A stretch of 64,000 nt of DNA, taken from positions 124,001 through 188,000 of the forward strand of contig AP026162.1 in the NCBI GenBank assembly GCA_030295235.1, in the 5' to 3' direction. Positions within the stretch are counted from its first letter, which is position 1; each line of letters opens with the position of its first letter. Shown one piece after another: positions 41,546 to 51,493 of the stretch. The notes below the pieces were generated by a model. That model saw only the letters and a program-made list of their open reading frames with translations, ran no database searches and had not been told where the DNA came from. The DNA is from Fistulifera solaris (lineage: Eukaryota > Bacillariophyta > Bacillariophyceae > Naviculales > Stauroneidaceae). A program made the translations under genes and the position numbers.

Positions 41546-43088
41546 TCACTTGGGGTCCATGAGGGACGCTAGGGCAGCGCCAGTTGCAACCGCGGTACCA
41601 ACAGTAGCGAAAAAGAATGGCGTCCGCTTTTTCTTTTGTTCCTTTCTCCGTGCTTCTTCCATCTCTTCGTGTTTCAACTTGTCGCGTTGGTTCTTTTCGG
41701 CCATTTGTTTCGCGAATTCTTCCGGTAATACGGACGAATGGTGATGCACTATTTTCCATACTCCATTTTCGCACGCGTAAATGAACGAGTATCGAGCAAC
41801 GGCTTTGGAGCCATCCGCTCCCATGGTGAATTCATAGATCCCCGTATCTTGAGCCCAATTGGCTCCGACGGTAATTCGTCCTCCTAGAATCTCTGCTCGC
41901 GGAAGAAACTCCAAAAATGTGTCATAATAGTCTCGAATTTCGCCGGGCGTGATACGCGGTGGCCCGGATATCGTTGGAATAAAGCTCGCTTTAGAGGAAT
42001 ACAGATCCATGACTCTGGAGGAATCCAGTGTCGCCAGAGCCCTGTTCCATTGATCAAAAAGTGCCCGTACTTGTTGTGGATTGATCCGATTGGCGACAAC
42101 ACCATCTTCTGGCATGATTGACGAATGATGATGCGCAATTTTCCATCGCCCGTGGGTATATACATAAATGAACGAGAATCGGCCCCGTAGCCTCTCACCC
42201 GTAGCTTGGAACACGAATTCGTATATTCCACTGTCTTTGGCCCAATTGGTACCGATTTGGACGTTCGAGCGGAGAATTTGACATTGTGGTCGCAGACGGA
42301 GAAAAGCACGATAATAGTTGCGTATGCTGTTCGGATTGGTCAAAGGCGCATCGGATGCCGTCGGAAGTACGACGGCGTCTTCGGTATATCGATTCAACAC
42401 AGCTTCTGCATCTCCTGTCATCAATGCATCATTCCACAAATTAAATAGATTGCGAACTTGAGCCTCCGAAATGCGTTGCTCGACGACGACTGATTCGGGC
42501 ATGAAGGATGAATGATGATTGAGAATCTTCCATGTTCCGTTTTCTTTGACGTAAAGAACGAATAACGAGCCATCATGCTCGTCCCATCATCTAGGAATTT
42601 AAATTCATAGATTCCTACATCCTTGGCCCATCCATCTCCTATTTTAATCCGTCCTCCGACAATTTCGGCTTGCGGTTTCCGACGCAGAAAAATGTCAAAA
42701 TAGTCGACAATACTTTGTGTGGTATTACGAGGCTCGTCGCGAATGGTAGGAATGAGAATGGCTTCACTAGAATAGCACGCCGCAACCTTTTTTGGGTTTC
42801 CGGTAGCCAACGCTTGATTCCATTTATCAAATAGCTTTCGAATTTCTTCGGGAGAATTTGGTTTGACTTTTTCCACCAATCGGGCATGTTGAAGGATGCT
42901 AAGCTACCAAATGAATTCTCCGTGACAGCACTGTATATTGTAGTGACGGGAGAATTTTGTGTTGCGAAAGAACGACCGTGCATCCATGATTGTGTTATTT
43001 GTGACGGCGCTAAGAACGCCACGGTAAATTGAACCGTCCACAGAACGCAAGAAGCACAGCAAAGCGAATAAGACAGCGAACTTTTCAT
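41546..43088 (-). CDS. Iota-class carbonic anhydrase-like protein, plastid-targeted, with C-terminal membrane anchor (gene A)
   Basis: Iota-CAs interconvert CO2 and bicarbonate; in diatoms the founding member is the low-CO2-induced LCIP63. The leader MKSSLSYSLCCASCVLWTVQ plus TVAFLAPS is a signal peptide with an ASAF-like plastid motif. Three SnoaL/CaMKII-association-type domains of about 130 aa follow, each with LFxxWNxAL, GxxWAxDxGIYEF and a closing motif: NHHSS in domain 1, HHHSS in domains 2 and 3. A Lys/Glu-rich stretch and a hydrophobic helix (TPFFFATVGTAVATGAALAS) end the protein, so it may be anchored in a plastid membrane. Two frame changes, at 42868-42872 (T run) and 42553-42555 (A run), are each repaired by one base. 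It is divergent from gene B. Confidence 0.82.
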
Positions 43089-43657
43089 CTCGAACTCGTC
43101 AATGCGCGACTGTTTAATTGTGTTTATTCTTTAAATCATAAACGTTTTGGGCGTGAAAGGCATATCAGGAAGAGCAGATCGCTTCCAAAGTGACACCTTT
43201 CGTTTTCTTTCTCAATCTCCCTCCGACCTCCGAATAAACTGCAAGCAAAGAACTGCACCGCCCCGCCGCAACCGAAGCGACGTTCTCGCTTCTCGTCCAC
43301 GTCATCAGGAGCCAATACCGTTCAGACACAGGCCTACGGACAGACCATCGCTTCCGCGCAGTGCGCACGAACTTGAAGAACGGAAATCGACACTTTCGCT
43401 ACTTTAAATCCTATACTCTTGGAATTGAGAATGCAAAAGAATGTAAACGTTGTATGACGTCAACCCCCCATAAAATCACAGTCGAACCACGTCACACCTC
43501 TCTTGGTTTCACGTGTGATCCTACGTGCGTTCTGGTACTGAGAGCACGAGCTGACGTTCGGCGACGTAAAGCATGACGTCCGTTGTTTTTTGCCTCCTCA
43601 CGCGTCTCATAAATTTCATTTTTGTGACTTTATTCTCGCAACATCACATCCATCAAG
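43089..43657. promoter_or_regulatory. Divergent promoter of iota-CA genes A and B
   Basis: 569 bp between start codons on opposite strands. It carries five TGACGT/ACGTCA cores: one at 43299-43304, closer to gene A, and four grouped near gene B. Diatom CO2-responsive carbonic anhydrase promoters are known to use these cores. Confidence 0.65.
43455..43579 (+). promoter_or_regulatory. CRE/CCRE-type site cluster upstream of iota-CA gene B
   Basis: Four sites in order: TGACGTCA (43455-43462), ACGTCA within cacgtcacac (43489-43494), TGACGT (43552-43557) and TGACGT (43574-43579), at about -203, -169, -106 and -84 from the ATG at 43658. They match the CO2/cAMP-responsive elements (TGACGT, ACGTCA) described for the Phaeodactylum PtCA1 promoter, bound by bZIP factors. 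The same order recurs upstream of gene C. Confidence 0.72.
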
Positions 43658-45572
43658 ATGCGCTTCTCTGCTATCGCCCTTGCCAGTGCTGCTCTCCTCT
43701 CCAGCGAAGCGTTTGCCTTTGTGCAACACCCTCGCGCGGTCTCCAAGGCGGCTATTCACTCCGAAGCCGCCTTTGTTTCCCCGTCCTTCTTACGCCAAGA
43801 TCTGGGAACCTCTCTTTTTGTCGGCCGTCGCTGAAGACGAAAAGACAGTTGTCAAGTCTGGTAAGGCTGAACTCACCAAGGATGAAGAAGAGATTCGTTC
43901 TCTCTTTTCTCTCTGGAACAATGCCCTTGCCACGGGAGATTCGCGTCTTGTTGCGGCGCGTTACGCCAAGGATGCCGTCCTTCTTCCGACCGTGTCCGAC
44001 ACTCCGCGCACGACGCCCGAATTAATCAAGGACTACTTTGATGCTTTCTTGAAGCGAAAGCCTCAGGGTGTCATTACCGAGGGATACATCAAGATTGGTG
44101 ATGGATTTGCCAAGGACTCGTAAGTTCACTCACTTGTGTGTGTCGTCGAAAGCCGTCGTCGGTCGTTTACGTGCGTCATGACATCTAACACTCGACTTCT
44201 TTCTTTCAATCAACGACAGTGGTATCTACGAATTCACAATGGGTGATAACAACAGCAAGGTAGAAGCCCGATACACCTTTGTCTACGTCAAGGAGAATGG
44301 AAAGTGGAAGATCTTGCACCACCACTCTTCGGTCATGCCGGAAGGCATCAGCGTCGCCCAGAAAATCACCGAGAACGAAGTTCGAGGACTCTTCAACTTG
44401 TGGAACGACGCCTTGGCGACTTTGGATTCGGATGCCGTGGCCAGCCGATACGCCAAGACGGCCGTCTTGCTCCCCACCGTGTCGGACACGCCCCGCACCA
44501 GCTACGAGCTCATCAAAGACTACTTTGACAACTTCCTCAAACGCAAGCCTCAGGGTGAAATTTTGGAGTCCTACGTCCAAATTGGTACCAACTGGGCCAA
44601 GGACAGTGGTATCTACGAATTCACCATGGGTGACACCGGCGACAAGGTGAAGGGTCGTTACTCCTTCATCTACGTCTACGAAGACGGTCAATGGAAGATT
44701 TCGCACCACCACTCCTCGGTCATGCCCGAAGGCATTACCGTCGGACAAAAGATTGAAAAGGAAGAGGTTCGCAAGTTGTTCAACTTGTGGAACGATGCTT
44801 TGGCCACCAAAGACTCCGCCAAGGTCGCGGCTCGTTACTCGAAAAACGCCGTCCTTCTTCCCACCGTCTCGGACAAGCCCCGCACCAGCAACGAATTGAT
44901 TGTTGACTACTTTAACAACTTTTTGAAGTTGGAGCCCCAGGGTGTCATTGATGAGGGTGAGATCATTGTTGGAACCAACTGGGCACAGGATGCTGGTATC
45001 TACACTTTCACTTTGGGAGCATCGGGCAAGAAGGTCCAGGCTCGTTACTCGTTCGTTTACGTCTACGAGGACGGTGAGTGGAAGATCTCTCATCACCATT
45101 CTTCGATGATGCCCGAGAAGGTGACTGTCGCTGAACCCATCACCAAGGAGCAAGTCCGTGACTTGTTCGGATTGTGGAACGACGCTCTCGCCACCAAGGA
45201 CCCCAAGAAGGTCGCTGCCCGCTACTCCAAGAACGCTGTTCTTCTTCCCACCGTGTCGGACACTCCTCGTACTTCTCCTGAATTGATTGAGGACTACTTT
45301 GAGGCCTTCTTGAAGAAGGAACCCCAGGGTGTCATTGACAGTGGAGATATCACCATCGGAGCCAACTGGGCCCAGGATGCTGGTATCTACACCTTCACCA
45401 TGGGCAATGACGGATCCAAGGTTCAGGCCCGATACTCTTTCGTTTATGTATTTGAAGATGGTGAATGGAAGATCTCTCACCACCACTCCTCGGTCATGCC
45501 GGAGGCTTTGCTAAACCCCCAAAGGCCGAAGCAAAGAAAGAGGAAGTTGCGGAAGAGAAGGTTGAAGCATAA
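43658..45572 (+). CDS. Iota-class carbonic anhydrase, plastid-targeted, four domains (gene B)
   Basis: Probable CO2/bicarbonate enzyme of the carbon-concentrating machinery. The leader MRFSAIALASAALLSSEAFA|FVQHPRA shows signal peptide plus ASAF motif. Exon 1 ends at GFAKDS; the GT-AG intron is 44120-44219; exon 2 begins TGGTATCTACGAATTC. Four repeats of about 130 aa follow, with consensus VRxLFNLWNDALA, VAARYxKxAVLLPTVSDTPRT, NWAxDxGIYxFT and WKIxHHHSSVMPE. The C terminus, AEAKKEEVAEEKVEA, is charged and has no membrane helix, so a soluble stromal or pyrenoid-associated protein is likely. Two frame changes occur: the T run 43815-43819 near the leader (joins TSLF to LSAVAEDEK) and the C run 45516-45520 near the end. 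The iota-CA family is recognised by the repeated domain with HHHSS; the activity is inferred. Confidence 0.87.
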
Positions 45573-45692
45573 TCAAGTTATATCATGCATATAATTTTGT
45601 CCTAGTATCATCGTGAAAATTTAGTGTTTATTTACTAGCTAGAGAAAAGCTAAGTGTATTTGTCTGGTCCGTACTAAATCTACCACATCCAG

Positions 45693-47345
45693 TTTGCCTC
45701 TGTCGATCAATTTCCTACGAGCTCTAGGTAGACGATCGAAGTGTTGCAACTTTGTACTGCTTCATGTTTCAGAATCAAATCAAGCTCGATTATTGTTTCA
45801 TGCAATGTATTAGCGATGTTGGGCAAAGTATTGTTGACATTGGCGTCGAAAAGATGCGAAAAATGGTGTGATCGAAATTGCGCAATATCCGGGTATCCCC
45901 TCTGTCGATAAATTTCCTTACCAGAGCTACGTGAAATTACGTAGGCATTCGAAGCGTTGCATCGTTCGTTCAATAAATGTTTTGTTACTCGCTCAAACGC
46001 GATTATTGCTTCTCGATACGATGCGAATGCGGTTTGCAAGAATACGCTGACTTTTCTGCACTGGAGAGCCATGAATTGGATGATGGAGAAAAAGAGATTA
46101 TCCGGGTACCCCTGCAGAGATAAATTTCCTACGGCGGCTACGTACTCTGCGTGTAGACATTGGAAGCGTTGTATCTTTTTACTTTTTCATGTTTCACTGT
46201 CAAATCAAAGTCGATTATTGTTTCCTGTCGTGCATAGGCGATGTTGGGCAAAGTATTGTTGACATTGGTGTCGAAAAGATGCGAAAAATGGTGTGATCGA
46301 AATTGCGCAATATCCGGGTATCCCCTCTGTCGATAAATTTCCTACGAGAGCTACCGGTAAGTGAAAATACGTAGACATTCGAAGCGTTGCATCATTCGTT
46401 CCATCAACGTTTTGTTTTCAAATCAATAGCGATTCTTGCTTCTCGATACGAAACAAATACGATGCGCAAGCAAACGTCGACATTTAGGCACTGTAGAGTC
46501 AAGAATGGGATGACGGCGAAAAACAAAATATCCGGGTACCCCTGCAGAGATAAATTTCCTACGGCTGCTACGTACTCTGCGCGTAGACACTGGAAGCGTT
46601 GTGTCTTTGTACTGTTTCATGTTTTAGTGTCGAATTAAGTTCGATAATTGTTTTATGCAATGTATTAGCGATGTTGGGCAAAGTATTGTTGACATTGGTG
46701 TCGAAAAGATGCGAAAAATGGTGTGATCGAAATTGCGCAAAATCCGGGTATCCCCTCTGTCGATAAATTTCCTTACCAGAGCTACGTGAAATTACGTAGA
46801 CATTCGAAGCGTTGCATCATTCGTTCCATCAACGTTTTGTTTTCGAATCGAAGGCGTTTATTGCTTCCGGATACGAAAAAAATACGATGCGCAAGCAAAC
46901 GTCGACATTTAGGCACTGTAGAGTCAAGAATGGGATGACGGCGAAAAACAAAATATCCGGGTACCCCTGCAGAGATAAATTTCCTACGGCGGCTACGTAC
47001 TCTGCGCGTAGACACTGGAAGCGTTGTATTTTTTTTGCTTTTTCATGTTTCACTGTCAAATCAAAGTCGATTATTGTTTCATGTCATGCATACGCGGTGT
47101 TGGGAAAAGTATTGTTGACATTGGTGTCGAAAAGATGCGAAAAATGGTGTGATCGAAATTGCGCAATATCCGGGTATCCCCTCTGTCGATAAATTTCCCT
47201 ACGAGAGCTACCGGTAAGTGAAAATACGTAGACATTCGAAGCGTTGCATCATTCGTTCCATCAACGTTTTGTTTTCAAATCAATGGCGATTTTTGCTTCC
47301 GGATACAATGTCAATACGGTGCACAAGAAGAAGTTGACTTTTCTG
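45693..47345. repeat. Higher-order tandem satellite, about 427-bp dimeric unit
   Basis: The unit marker gcgatgttgggcaaagtatt begins at about 45813, 46238, 46668 and 47094 (spacing 425, 430, 426). Each unit is a dimer of two related halves of about 210 bp: one with atccgggtatcccctctgtc and one with atccgggtacccctgcagag, both followed by gataaatttcctac and then tagacattcgaagcgttg-like sequence. A more diverged half unit heads the array near 45693. It fills the gap between iota-CA gene B and the dynactin gene. No gene was recognised in it. Confidence 0.9.
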
Positions 47346-47361
47346 CACTGAATGAATACAC

Positions 47362-48858
47362 ATGACAAGCACGAAGAAAACACACGTTTTATATGTCGAT
47401 CATCAAGGCCATCCGGCTCCCTTAACGGAATGTTTTCACGCCACTGCGTCGCGTCGGCTTTCTTCGACACTGCAGCGGTTTCCTCCGTCTTCCGTCACTT
47501 CCATCGATAGTGCTTACTGCCCGAACTGCTTGACTTCGCAAGATCTTGTTCAATATTGCAATCGCTGTCAGCGTTGTTCAGTTTGTGTGCACTCGATGCT
47601 GCAAATTATGGTCCGTGACAATCACTGTGTGTACGAGTGTGCGACGTGTCAATGGCGCAGCGCTATTTCGGTACCCGTGGTCGAAAATGCGAGTAAAGTA
47701 GAAATAGCACGAGCCGCAGAAGATTTATGCTTACAAGTAAAAGAAGCGAGACAAGTGGCGGATCACAAAGATTTATTTTCCGAACGAAAGATACGTCGTG
47801 GAATTCAGTCACTGCGTTCGTTTGATCGAGACAAGGATTGGTCGTTGGAGATTCTCGAAGCAACGCTGGAAACGAAACGAAAAGAAAAGAGTATTCGTCC
47901 GGAAGAATCAAAAGTGGAGAGTAGTTTATCGATTCAACGCCTCAATCTAGAAGACGATGAGGATAGGACACCGACAAAGTTCGAAGGTACGATAGGAGCA
48001 TGGCAGTGGCAGGCCTTGGTTCGTGGTGTACATCGCAATGATCTGCTACCCTTACCGGTTCCTTTACGTGCTCGTCGAAGTCGTCGGTGTCGTGCTGAAC
48101 TTGCCTCGGGTCGTCCCGGAATTTTGGTCAAACCGAAAGTCAATCCTTTGGAGGGCGATAGCAGTTTACGAACCGGGCACGGTCAATGGTGGAGAAAGGT
48201 ACGCCAGTCAACTCAAGGTGAATTATTCTTTCAACTATGCAATATCTCACATGGCTTTTCATTCATTTTTTAGGATTCGAGCGCCATTCACGTAATACCG
48301 CGTGTACGCGTGGTAAAGACGGTCTACCAGGAAGCATCCATCCATTTTCTATTGCAGGTTACGAACCCCACTTTAGGTCTAATTCGAATGCGCTGGGGCC
48401 CTAGTCCTTATTGTGGAGAAGAGGATTGGGATGGAAATGTGACGTTGTTGTTACAGCACCTATTGGTTGACACCATAACACAGGAGCATTGGAACGTACG
48501 ACTGCTCGAAGCGGAAGAGAGGCAATTCGAGACAACCAAGATCATAGAGCTCGCGTCAGCCGAAGATACCTTGCTGGAATTAAATCACAATAGTGGTAAT
48601 CAAGTTCCAGAAGCTATATCCCGTTGGAGTGGTACCAGCGAACAGACTCAGTGGATCGGTCAGCAGCAACAAGACGCCTGGCTGGAAGTTGTCGTTGAAA
48701 TCAAATCAACAATAAAGAACAATGAGCATTTGGCGATTCCACTTCGGATGCAAGTCGAGCTTGGCAATGGTTCATGGGAATCATCGCTGATCGAGCAGGA
48801 TACTTCTAAAGAAACAGATTGGGTCGATATTGACGTGGTATTGACGTGGGAGTCATGA
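47362..48858 (+). CDS. Dynactin p62 subunit (DCTN4-like)
   Basis: A subunit of the pointed end of dynactin, the dynein activator. Two exons: 47362-48198 and 48274-48858, with a 75-nt GT-AG intron joining QWWRK to DSSAIHVIPRVRVVK. The N-terminal half has the family's zinc-type cysteines: YCPNCLTSQDLVQYCNRC, then QRCSVCVHSML and YECATCQW. A helical charged middle (KVEIARAAEDLCLQVKEARQ) follows. The C-terminal half starts with LPLPVPLRARRSRRCRAELA, matching the DCTN4 signature around LRNKRSKRCR, and ends in a beta-rich region. Total about 474 aa, near the 460 aa of the human protein. Presence of dynactin implies cytoplasmic dynein transport. The start is just after the satellite array. Confidence 0.88.
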
Positions 48859-48916
48859 GAGGCTTACTGTGGAACACGATGTTGATGTTTATTTCATGCA
48901 TTGAATTTTAGTTTGA

Positions 48917-50860
48917 TTATTCAATTTCCTCCATCGAATGATCATCAGGCGCGTCAATATCGCTGTCAGTCTTCTTTTCTTCATCGTGAATTGTGTGCCC
49001 CTCCGCTTCGCAATCGTTTTCTTCCTGGTCATGGTAATTGCTCGAGACTGGACTAACTGATCCCAGGATGTGGACCTCCACGTGCTCGTTCTCTACTTTT
49101 GAGTTGGACGTGAGCGCAGAATGCGAACGCTTGCTTCCGGACCTTTGCAGTTCCATGGACAAAGTCATGGAGGCAATGACCTGATTTTGGGCCGTCACAT
49201 CATCCTCACCGCAATCGCCATGATCCCCTTGCAAAACTGTGGACAAGGCGTATTGTTCACTACGTCCTGGTCGTAATAAAGCCACAAGGCTTGATTGGTT
49301 TTTGTCTTCGTCGACATCTAGCCATACCTTAACCACAAAGGATGAAAGATAATTATCGTCGAACGCCCAACTATCATAATGCAAGACCAAGTTCGATAAT
49401 GTGAGAGCCAATCCCGGACTAACGTGGAATTTGTGAGGCTCGCCTTCTCTGAGAATAGCAGTTGCTACTCCGGGAGCATCATAATGATGGATCCAAGGTT
49501 GGAGACAGGAATTGGCCAATATTTCTGCTCTGTCATTGCACCGATGGTATCGATAACGTTTCATTTCAAAGTCCGTTAGAAGGCATTGGTCGAGTGATTT
49601 GGTAATATCGCCTTGTTTCAAACCGATTCCAATGAACACAATTTCTTGTCGACGGTCACCATACGCGCCTTCAAATTTGGCTCGAATGCGTTGAATGTCA
49701 GCTTCGTCATCGACGCCCCATTCATTTTTAGGCAAGGTAACATACCAAGGAGTCATTGGGTGGATCATAACAAGTCTGCCACTATGAGCCCATCCACCGA
49801 TGTTTGCGTCGCGGCCAGCAATCCAACAGAAGCCTTTGGAGCGAATGATATGACCATACGTGCCACACATGTGTGTGAATCGGTTATCAAGCTCGCTCAT
49901 AAAGCTTGGCTGGTGGATTCTGTCACTATTCCAATCATGTGAAAAGCACAGAATTTGATTTACCCACTGTGCCAGACGACCAGAATGAAATGGTTTGCGA
50001 GCGCGATACACGAACGATGTAATGCCATATTCTTCGGATTCACTGATCATAGTCTTGTCTGATTGCATGGAGACCAACCAGCCAGGACTTTCTTCTGCAT
50101 CCTTCATGGTGAACATTCTTGTGTTAAGAATGAGATTAAGGTCGACGACGCCAAACTTCGTAGGGATGACGGTGGCTTTGGGGTTAAGTGTTCGAATCAT
50201 TTCTTTTGTTGCTTGACAGTCTTGTTCGGATACCAGATCCGTTTTGTTTAGCAGTATGACATTGGCAAACTCCACTTGCTCAATCAACAAATCAGCAATA
50301 CTCTTTTCGCCTTCTTCATCTGAGTCTTCCCCGAGACCATCCTTGAACTCATCTTTGAATCGTTTGAGGGAAGAGAGATGACGAGGGAAATCATTCGTGT
50401 CAATAACCGTGACACAAGTATCCAGTCGGGCCACACTCCAAAGCATCTTGGATGGATCGTCGGCGAGTACAGTTGTTTCAGGGTCTGCACAAAATCCTTC
50501 CGCGACTTGTTGGGGTTCGGCAATGCCCGTTGATTCAATCAAGATGTAATCAAACGTACCGATTTCTCGGATACGATTGATTTCACGGATCAAATCCCCT
50601 CGCAAGGTACAGCAAATGCACCCATTGGACATGGAAATCAGCTCCCTCTTCGTTTGCACGAGGCCACTTTGTTCAACTACAGCAGCATCAATATTGAGTT
50701 CGGCCATATCATTCACAATCACGGCAACTTTCATGTTATGGTCGTGCCACTTGAGGATATACTGCAGTAGCGTAGATTTTCCGGACCCTAGAAATCCCGA
50801 GATGACTGTTACAGGAATACGGACATCCTTTGCTTCCACTTGTCTATTCGTTTCCATCAT
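48917..50860 (-). CDS. CobW/COG0523-family GTPase (putative metallochaperone)
   Basis: A G3E-type GTPase of the family that loads metals (zinc or cobalt) into client proteins. The start is at 50860 (MMETNRQVEAKD); upstream codons are probably leader. Motifs: VISGFLGSGKST (Walker A), SNGCICCTLRGD (CxCC metal site), YILIESTGIAEPQQ (switch/Walker B) and LLNKTDL (guanine specificity). The C-terminal CobW domain holds FVYRARKPFHSGRL, SKGFCWIAGR and IRAKFEGAYGDRRQEIVFIG, typical of large eukaryotic members. An acidic Asp/Glu/His-rich tail of about 100 residues is unusual and could bind metal or be a spacer. There is no targeting leader, so it is probably cytosolic. It is intact at about 647 aa and divergent from iota-CA gene C. 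Metal identity is unknown. Confidence 0.9.
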   Translation of the reverse strand: MMETNRQVEAKDVRIPVTVISGFLGSGKSTLLQYILKWHDHNMKVAVIVNDMAELNIDAAVVEQSGLVQTKRELISMSNGCICCTLRGDLIREINRIREIGTFDYILIESTGIAEPQQVAEGFCADPETTVLADDPSKMLWSVARLDTCVTVIDTNDFPRHLSSLKRFKDEFKDGLGEDSDEEGEKSIADLLIEQVEFANVILLNKTDLVSEQDCQATKEMIRTLNPKATVIPTKFGVVDLNLILNTRMFTMKDAEESPGWLVSMQSDKTMISESEEYGITSFVYRARKPFHSGRLAQWVNQILCFSHDWNSDRIHQPSFMSELDNRFTHMCGTYGHIIRSKGFCWIAGRDANIGGWAHSGRLVMIHPMTPWYVTLPKNEWGVDDEADIQRIRAKFEGAYGDRRQEIVFIGIGLKQGDITKSLDQCLLTDFEMKRYRYHRCNDRAEILANSCLQPWIHHYDAPGVATAILREGEPHKFHVSPGLALTLSNLVLHYDSWAFDDNYLSSFVVKVWLDVDEDKNQSSLVALLRPGRSEQYALSTVLQGDHGDCGEDDVTAQNQVIASMTLSMELQRSGSKRSHSALTSNSKVENEHVEVHILGSVSPVSSNYHDQEENDCEAEGHTIHDEEKKTDSDIDAPDDHSMEEIE

Positions 50861-51071
50861 GATGTATTTTCTCTGGAGTGAAATTTTGTGAATGGGAGAG
50901 AAAGTGTTGATGGTTTTGCAAAAGAAAAACAAATGCAATAGGCCATACCTGATACCTTTCTTTGGTCTAACTTTTACCTTTTGACGTTAGGGGAAGTTGA
51001 TCTAGGCTGCTGTATATAAACTTCTGGCTAAAAGAAAAGGTCGGAAGCTTTAAAAGGGCTTTTTAGTTAAA

Positions 51072-51198
51072 TCGTATTAGACCTTCCTATGCACCTTGTC
51101 CTCAAGCTGTTTCGTTTTCGGCCTTGCTCTATAATAAAATCGTATTAGACCTACCTATGGTACCTTGTCTCTCTAGCTGTTTCGTTTTTGGCCTAATT
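51072..51198 (+). repeat. Imperfect direct duplication, about 60 bp
   Basis: Two copies share aaatcgtattagacctnccta, ccttgtc and agctgtttcgtttt-ggcct; the second adds short insertions (gta, tct). Confidence 0.7.
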
Positions 51199-51374
51199 TT
51201 TTTTTCCAAAAGAGCAAACGTGAAAAAGGCCACAATCCAGCAACCTGCAAGGCCATAACGCCATCCAAGATTCGTATAGGTTAGTCCCACTCGAGATTTG
51301 GCGACAAGCAAGAAGCAAGTGCCAAGTGCCAAGTCGAAGTTGCGATCCGGTATTTAGGCGCAAAGATCCATGGG

Positions 51375-51493
51375 TGACGTCAGATCTTTGAAATAACACG
51401 TCACACATGCGACACGAGGTCCACAGTAGGAAGTAAAAGTAAAGCACGCCGAATGCGAGGTCTCTTTGTAGTTTCGTGACGTGCCTGTGACGT
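51375..51493 (+). promoter_or_regulatory. CRE/CCRE-type site cluster upstream of iota-CA gene C
   Basis: Four sites in the same order and orientation as for gene B: TGACGTCA (51375-51382), ACGTCA within cacgtcacac (51398-51403), TGACGT (51477-51482) and TGACGT (51488-51493), at about -225, -202, -123 and -112 from the ATG at 51600. A CO2/cAMP-responsive role is inferred from known diatom carbonic anhydrase promoters. Confidence 0.72.

Follow-up and report, generated by a model that had tools for sequence, protein, structure and literature searches.

Two genes for iota-class carbonic anhydrase (iota-CA), here called B and C, lie in a 64-kb stretch of the genome of the diatom Fistulifera solaris (C1:124001-188000 in a 51.7-Mb genome of 61 contigs; hereafter the window), and each is preceded by a group of four sites of the TGACGT type. 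The first-pass annotation of this DNA took the group to be a CO2-responsive module shared by paralogues, and the question that the locus raises is whether the two promoters do carry such a switch. What was observed directly is that the sites exist and cluster, that they persist in both subgenomes, and which genes stand beside similar patterns elsewhere. Judging from the sequence, the clusters in B and C probably act as platforms of the cyclic AMP (cAMP)-responsive element (CRE) type within a low-CO2 regulon that includes photorespiration genes, a reading to which we assign a probability of about 0.58. The proposal of a CO2-responsive module holds up in that the clusters occur less often than chance predicts, are preserved in both subgenomes and have counterparts of similar pattern beside carbon genes; further points, namely a fixed site order, common ancestry and generality among genes of the carbon-concentrating mechanism (CCM), are not supported.

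Site clusters in the promoters of B and C

The annotation had described four sites in the same order and orientation before each gene, 85-225 bp from the start codon, and all eight were found, with first bases at -203 to -84 from the ATG in B and -225 to -112 in C. The sites and the two genes are as follows (window positions; C2 is the contig with the homoeologous copy).

43299..43304, +: extra ACGTCA upstream of B, beyond the module; -359; present in C2 too
43455..43462, +: B site 1, TGACGTCA, a full CRE palindrome; -203 from ATG; identical in C2
43489..43494, +: B site 2, ACGTCA inside CACGTCACAC; -169; identical in C2
43552..43557, +: B site 3, TGACGT; -106; identical in C2
43574..43579, +: B site 4, TGACGT; -84; identical in C2
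43658..45594, +: gene B, iota-CA; four CaMKII_AD domains, an intron interrupting domain 1; signal-peptide-like N-terminus; first exon frame-shifted on this copy
51375..51382, +: C site 1, TGACGTCA; -225 from ATG; identical in C2
51398..51403, +: C site 2, ACGTCA inside CACGTCACAC; -202; identical in C2
51477..51482, +: C site 3, TGACGT; -123; identical in C2
51488..51493, +: C site 4, TGACGT; -112; identical in C2
51600..52969, +: gene C, iota-CA; three CaMKII_AD domains, an intron interrupting domain 1; N-terminus mitochondrial-looking by eye

By domain and motif B and C are iota-CAs, with predicted enzyme activity: repeated CaMKII_AD domains occur together with the (H)HHSS motif of the LCIP63 type, present as HHHSS in the translations. 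In the main exon, PF08332 (CaMKII_AD) matches four stretches for B and three for C; in each gene the first stretch completes a domain that starts in exon 1. The gene C protein is 98% identical to F. solaris FisN_1Lh074 and has a basic N-terminus; the organelle addresses of both proteins were judged by eye.

Several TGACGT and ACGTCA elements thus stand in each proximal promoter, as in promoters with CO2/cAMP-responsive elements (CCREs). TGACGC/GCGTCA (CCRE3) is missing from the first site to the ATG in both genes, and we therefore do not class B and C as strict CCRE1-3 promoters. The gaps between sites, taken from the coordinates, are unequal (26/57/16 in B, 15/73/5 in C).

As to chance, the annotation had put the expectation at 0.06 hexamers per 125 bp, close to the 0.07 given by the window count. 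The TGACGT hexamer occurs 36 times in the window against 37.4 expected; the window as a whole is not enriched, and the signal is therefore one of local clustering. Dinucleotide shuffles of the 300-bp promoters reached four sites in 145 bp once in 5000 trials for B and never in 5000 for C, and three or more sites in 145 bp were found only at B, C and their homoeologs in 114 kb of background (the window plus loci L017-L021, selected without regard to the motif), to which the whole-genome pattern counts given below are added. That the clusters are chance groupings of a common hexamer would fit the chance-level frequency of isolated hexamers in the window, but given the shuffles, the intact state of the clusters in the other subgenome and the rarity of the pattern genome-wide we consider it very improbable.

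Fistulifera solaris is described as an allopolyploid whose chromosomes form 42 homoeologous pairs, with 9007 gene pairs and an overall sequence homology of 75% (PMC5935921). Its two homoeologous subgenomes therefore provide a built-in comparison for promoters, and across the window region C1 and C2 align in long matching blocks of 86-91% identity. None of the eight sites differs between the two contigs (52 of 52 site positions identical), compared with 488 of 548 non-site positions within 300 bp of the two ATGs. In the site-bearing blocks, back from the ATG to -200 in B and -250 in C, each 50 bp shows 88-96% identity. Further upstream of B, identity is 82-84% at -300 to -201, 58% at -350, 78% at -400 and 40-46% at -650 to -401; upstream of C it is 82% at -300 and 26-46% at -450 to -301, then rises towards the neighbouring CobW gene. 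Because the entire proximal block is well kept, the sites taken alone are weak evidence of selection (0.94^52 ~ 0.04), and on this alignment the footprint is the conserved proximal block as a whole rather than the sites.

Conservation of the module from one ancestral promoter, which the annotation had suggested, was not borne out by the comparison of B with C. When the 300-bp promoters were aligned locally, 180 of 1000 shuffles reached the best score and, with the sites masked, 940 of 1000 did, so that apart from the sites the promoters align no better than shuffled sequence and separate gain is equally possible. The sites and the CACGTCACAC context are common to both promoters; nothing further was detected. 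A single iota-CA promoter might still have been duplicated, with only the sites surviving as a relic or as a switch conserved by descent: the genes are paralogous, the sites are alike in order and orientation, and the CACGTCACAC context is common beyond the hexamer. The shuffle results and the unequal gaps speak against such descent, as does the glycolate oxidase gene described below, which is no paralogue and yet has three of the four sites in order, pointing to repeated gain. We regard descent from one promoter as improbable.

Similar site patterns across the genome

A whole-genome search for three of the sites in order, TGACGTCAN{5,35}ACGTCAN{50,80}TGACGT, gave six matches in the 51.7 Mb, at three loci, each in both subgenomes: B and C (C1 and C2) and a glycolate oxidase gene (C11 and C12). 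About 0.16 matches would be expected, by arithmetic from the 1081 palindromes in the genome and the hexamer density of the window, and the pattern written backwards gave none. Because the gap ranges were set after seeing B and C, the third locus is the sole independent find. Its three sites lie at -275 to -185 from the ATG, in the order and on the strand seen in B and C. The gene encodes an FMN-dependent hydroxyacid oxidase with 92% identity to a Phaeodactylum tricornutum protein named glycolate oxidase and 99% identity to FisN_3Lh083 of F. solaris; lactate-oxidase and lactate-dehydrogenase models and structures match it too, and glycolate is thus its putative substrate.

The looser pair TGACGTCAN{5,35}ACGTCA gave 58 matches at 51 distinct places, against 19 for its backwards control, and at least one copy of each locus was examined. 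Fourteen pair loci occur in both subgenomes; two are retroelements by eye, leaving 12. A locus was counted as conserved when the sequence separating its sites was similar in the two copies, and for 7 of the 12 the flanks of both copies were compared. Five of the 12 stand at carbon genes, namely B, C, glycolate oxidase, the glycine-cleavage T protein (GDC-T) and, on C3/C4, a Bestrophin_2 gene whose product has a plastid-type N-terminus. The glycine-cleavage P protein (GDC-P) adjoins a pair match on one copy only (C22). With B and C left out, the carbon share of the conserved loci is 3 of 10 (binomial probability 5e-5 to 2.5e-2, the bounds set by a narrow class of 70 among the 9007 genes and a wide class of 300 counted on both sides of the site). 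Elements of the candidate regulon are present at B and C, at glycolate oxidase, at both of these glycine-cleavage proteins and at one bestrophin. The pair TGACGTCAN{5,35}CACGTCACAC, with the longer context, matched five times: at B and C in each subgenome, and once on C12, where no gene nearby could be named.

The downstream part of the cluster, ACGTCAN{50,80}TGACGTN{3,20}TGACGT, gave 19 matches at eight loci, and its backwards control one match. Apart from B, C and glycolate oxidase these lie at C9:444379/C10:454945, C11:213587, C14:797467, C16:1107276 and C21:614637. The first is a dense TGACGT cluster with six overlapping triple matches at C9:444379-444493, the C10 match spanning 454945-455035; the homoeology of the two is assumed from the contig pairing.

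Elsewhere, two full palindromes stand 36 bp apart end to end at C30:172218-174253 (locus L078), and on C31 too. The open reading frame (ORF) that follows on C30 is short, with a start that by eye resembles formate-tetrahydrofolate ligase and no Pfam match.

A candidate low-CO2 regulon and a light-driven alternative

In P. tricornutum the elements TGACGT, ACGTCA and TGACGC confer control by CO2 through cAMP (PMC7378808), and cAMP represses genes that carry such elements (PMC5067629). By analogy, a CREB/ATF-like bZIP factor of the PtbZIP11 kind would bind the clusters of B and C; at high CO2 cAMP signalling would repress both genes, as it does PtCA1, and at low CO2 they would be switched on. The regulon would include no fewer than two iota-CAs, along with glycolate oxidase, both glycine-cleavage proteins and a single bestrophin, all co-regulated, so that inorganic-carbon supply and photorespiratory salvage would be switched together. 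Work on other diatoms is in line with such a response: the iota-CA of Thalassiosira pseudonana is plastidial and is made at low CO2 only (PMC6776030), a CO2 cluster in T. pseudonana has the P. tricornutum cis-elements at delta-CA3, at transporters and at glycolate oxidase (PMC7378808), and the PtBST1 promoter has TGACGT/C motifs on both strands (PMC11142338). Copies of iota-CA targeted to the chloroplast are found widely among diatoms (PMC6723447).

The same clusters might be targets of aureochromes or of other light- or clock-related bZIP factors, in which case light would co-regulate photosynthesis-linked genes with no sensing of CO2. Aureochromes are blue-light bZIP factors that recognise a TGACGT core. 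The clusters contain this core, and the hexamer does not discriminate between light and CO2. TGACGT also occurs in papers on Aureochrome 1, and both light and CO2 act on the PtCA1 and PtCA2 promoters (PMC7378808). The paper on promoter targets of Aureochrome 1a yielded no passage containing ACGT, a result that does not shift the balance either way. Among the neighbours of pair matches are uroporphyrinogen decarboxylase and a chlorophyll-binding protein, as co-regulation by light would lead one to expect. Glycolate oxidase and glycine cleavage, however, follow photorespiration rather than light harvesting, and the gene list is closer to the published CO2 cluster. Light as the sole input therefore seems to us unlikely, though it deserves to be taken seriously.

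A number of results weigh against a CO2-responsive regulon and limit its extent. The flipped control TGACGTCAN{5,35}TGACGTN{50,80}ACGTCA still gave three matches at two loci (C19:996549/C20:903221, whose homoeology is assumed from the contig pairing, and C35:101994), compared with three loci for the original; the contention that the strict order of the sites matters was accordingly rejected as unproven, and their orientation is not clearly special. Seven of the 12 conserved pair loci have no visible carbon link: one adjoins a CobW GTPase, one uroporphyrinogen decarboxylase and one a CMS1-like protein, and the remaining four have a neighbour with no Pfam name or no discernible gene. When all non-retroelement loci apart from B and C are counted, the carbon share is 4 of 33 (binomial probability 1.2e-4 to 0.17), which is not significant under the widest gene class. 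Pfam was run on 20 ORFs, 19 chosen neighbours and the CobW gene of the window, and the neighbours were sorted with the hypothesis in mind rather than blind. Counted by exon, Bestrophin_2 matches the genome 64 times, yet no gene pair except that on C3/C4 is near a pair match, and the downstream triple has five loci beyond B, C and glycolate oxidase. In the ocean, iota-CA transcripts are generally poorly correlated with carbon chemistry (PMC8119650).

Further points of the same kind come from other carbon genes. Ten other CCM promoters were examined, one homoeolog each (two PF01062 bestrophins, three theta-CAs and five SLC4 transporters). In nine of them the 300 bp before a candidate ATG hold no more than one half-site (one in three promoters, none in six), and no promoter has three, start codons being inferred from open frames so that some true promoters may sit further upstream. 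The theta-CA on C42 has a palindrome at -117 and a half-site at -228 from its candidate ATG, and the SLC4 stretch on C30 has four hexamers about 390-780 bp before its own. Within the 10 kb around each, no three-site cluster in 145 bp was found at the iota-CA loci on C46, C5 and C6 or at the copy on C2 of gene A, the paralogue next to B. The module was thus rejected both as a mark of CCM genes generally and as a mark of all iota-CA genes. For the regulon as a whole the picture is mixed, with similar elements at glycolate oxidase, GDC-T, GDC-P and a bestrophin, and at most one half-site in nine of the ten other CCM promoters.

To our knowledge, the transcriptional control of iota-CA has been little studied. 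The class is nevertheless among the most abundant CA classes in ocean diatom transcripts (PMC8119650), and the defined clusters in two iota-CA promoters, partly common to photorespiration genes, yield a short list of sites and genes in F. solaris, where genome editing has been available according to a 2026 report (PMC13276009).

Neighbouring features and comparison with known systems

Upstream of B, and in the opposite direction, lies a third gene of the family:

41546..43088, -: gene A, divergent iota-CA paralogue; candidate first ATG 43088

The start codons of A and B are 570 bp apart on C1 (43088-43658) and about 7.7 kb apart on C2 (C2:148705-156367), a difference that on the alignment is an insertion or deletion beside the conserved B promoter; it weakens the idea of a single bidirectional switch for the two genes. 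On the C1 copy the frame of A is broken inside the first domain relative to C2, and the frame of B from ATG 43658 (window 43658-43860) ends after 58 codons; the homoeolog of B is open through the first exon. These breaks are either assembly slips or decay of one homoeolog.

Between B and C, window positions 45851-47132 hold an apparent tandem repeat of a unit of about 427 bp, marked by AAGATGCG at 45851, 46276, 46706 and 47132, and the stretch 45667-47350 is shrunk to about 270 bp on C2. The divergent neighbour of gene C is a CobW/CobW_C GTPase gene (window 48917-50860, -), and a second CobW gene adjoins the pair match at C17:642779/C18:545980. A CobW/WW factor is a repressor of the Chlamydomonas CCM (PMC12891040); no WW domain was found by Pfam in the CobW protein or proteins here. 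Further off, at window 20154-41360 (+), are several ORFs of 370-522 aa that are alike, trypsin-like by eye and have proline-valine-rich tails; they look like a tandem family of secreted proteases, as judged by eye. No relative turned up when viral contigs were scanned once for orthologous loci.

The kind of system suggested here is already known, and the F. solaris iota-CA genes are probable new members of it; among the matches listed from the open-access literature, subscription papers lying outside it, none deals with F. solaris or with iota-CA promoters as carriers of CRE clusters. A search of the whole genome for beta-CA (PF00484) gave no candidate. It is conceivable, though we hold this only tentatively, that in F. 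solaris the CO2/cAMP switch sits on iota-CAs that replace the beta-CAs of P. tricornutum, with dense CRE clusters tying two iota-CAs, one of the plastid and one of the mitochondrion, to glycolate oxidase and glycine cleavage. If so, the regulon would be conserved across diatoms and the enzyme class beneath it exchanged; the clusters bear on whether a regulatory code can persist in diatoms when the enzyme that it serves is replaced.

The closest parallel is with CCRE1-3 of PtCA1 and PtCA2 in P. tricornutum, which are bound by PtbZIP11: as in B and C, several TGACGT/ACGTCA elements in both orientations lie in a proximal CA promoter. The F. solaris genes differ in being of the iota and not the beta class, in having the TGACGTCA palindrome at the head of the cluster and in the absence of TGACGC, and their four sites extend over about 120 bp, whereas the three of PtCA1/PtCA2 fall within -86 to -42 of the transcription start (PMC7378808). 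The cluster of CCM and photorespiration genes in T. pseudonana (Hennon et al. 2015, as cited in PMC7378808 and PMC5067629) has the same elements at CCM genes, bestrophins and glycolate oxidase; the F. solaris set, in comparison, is known from DNA alone and includes two iota-CAs, GDC-T and GDC-P. Finally, PtBST1 has TGACGT/C on both strands within about 300 bp of a bestrophin start codon (PMC11142338), and the F. solaris bestrophin resembles it with one palindrome and one half-site in both copies, a second nearby half-site being present on C3 only.

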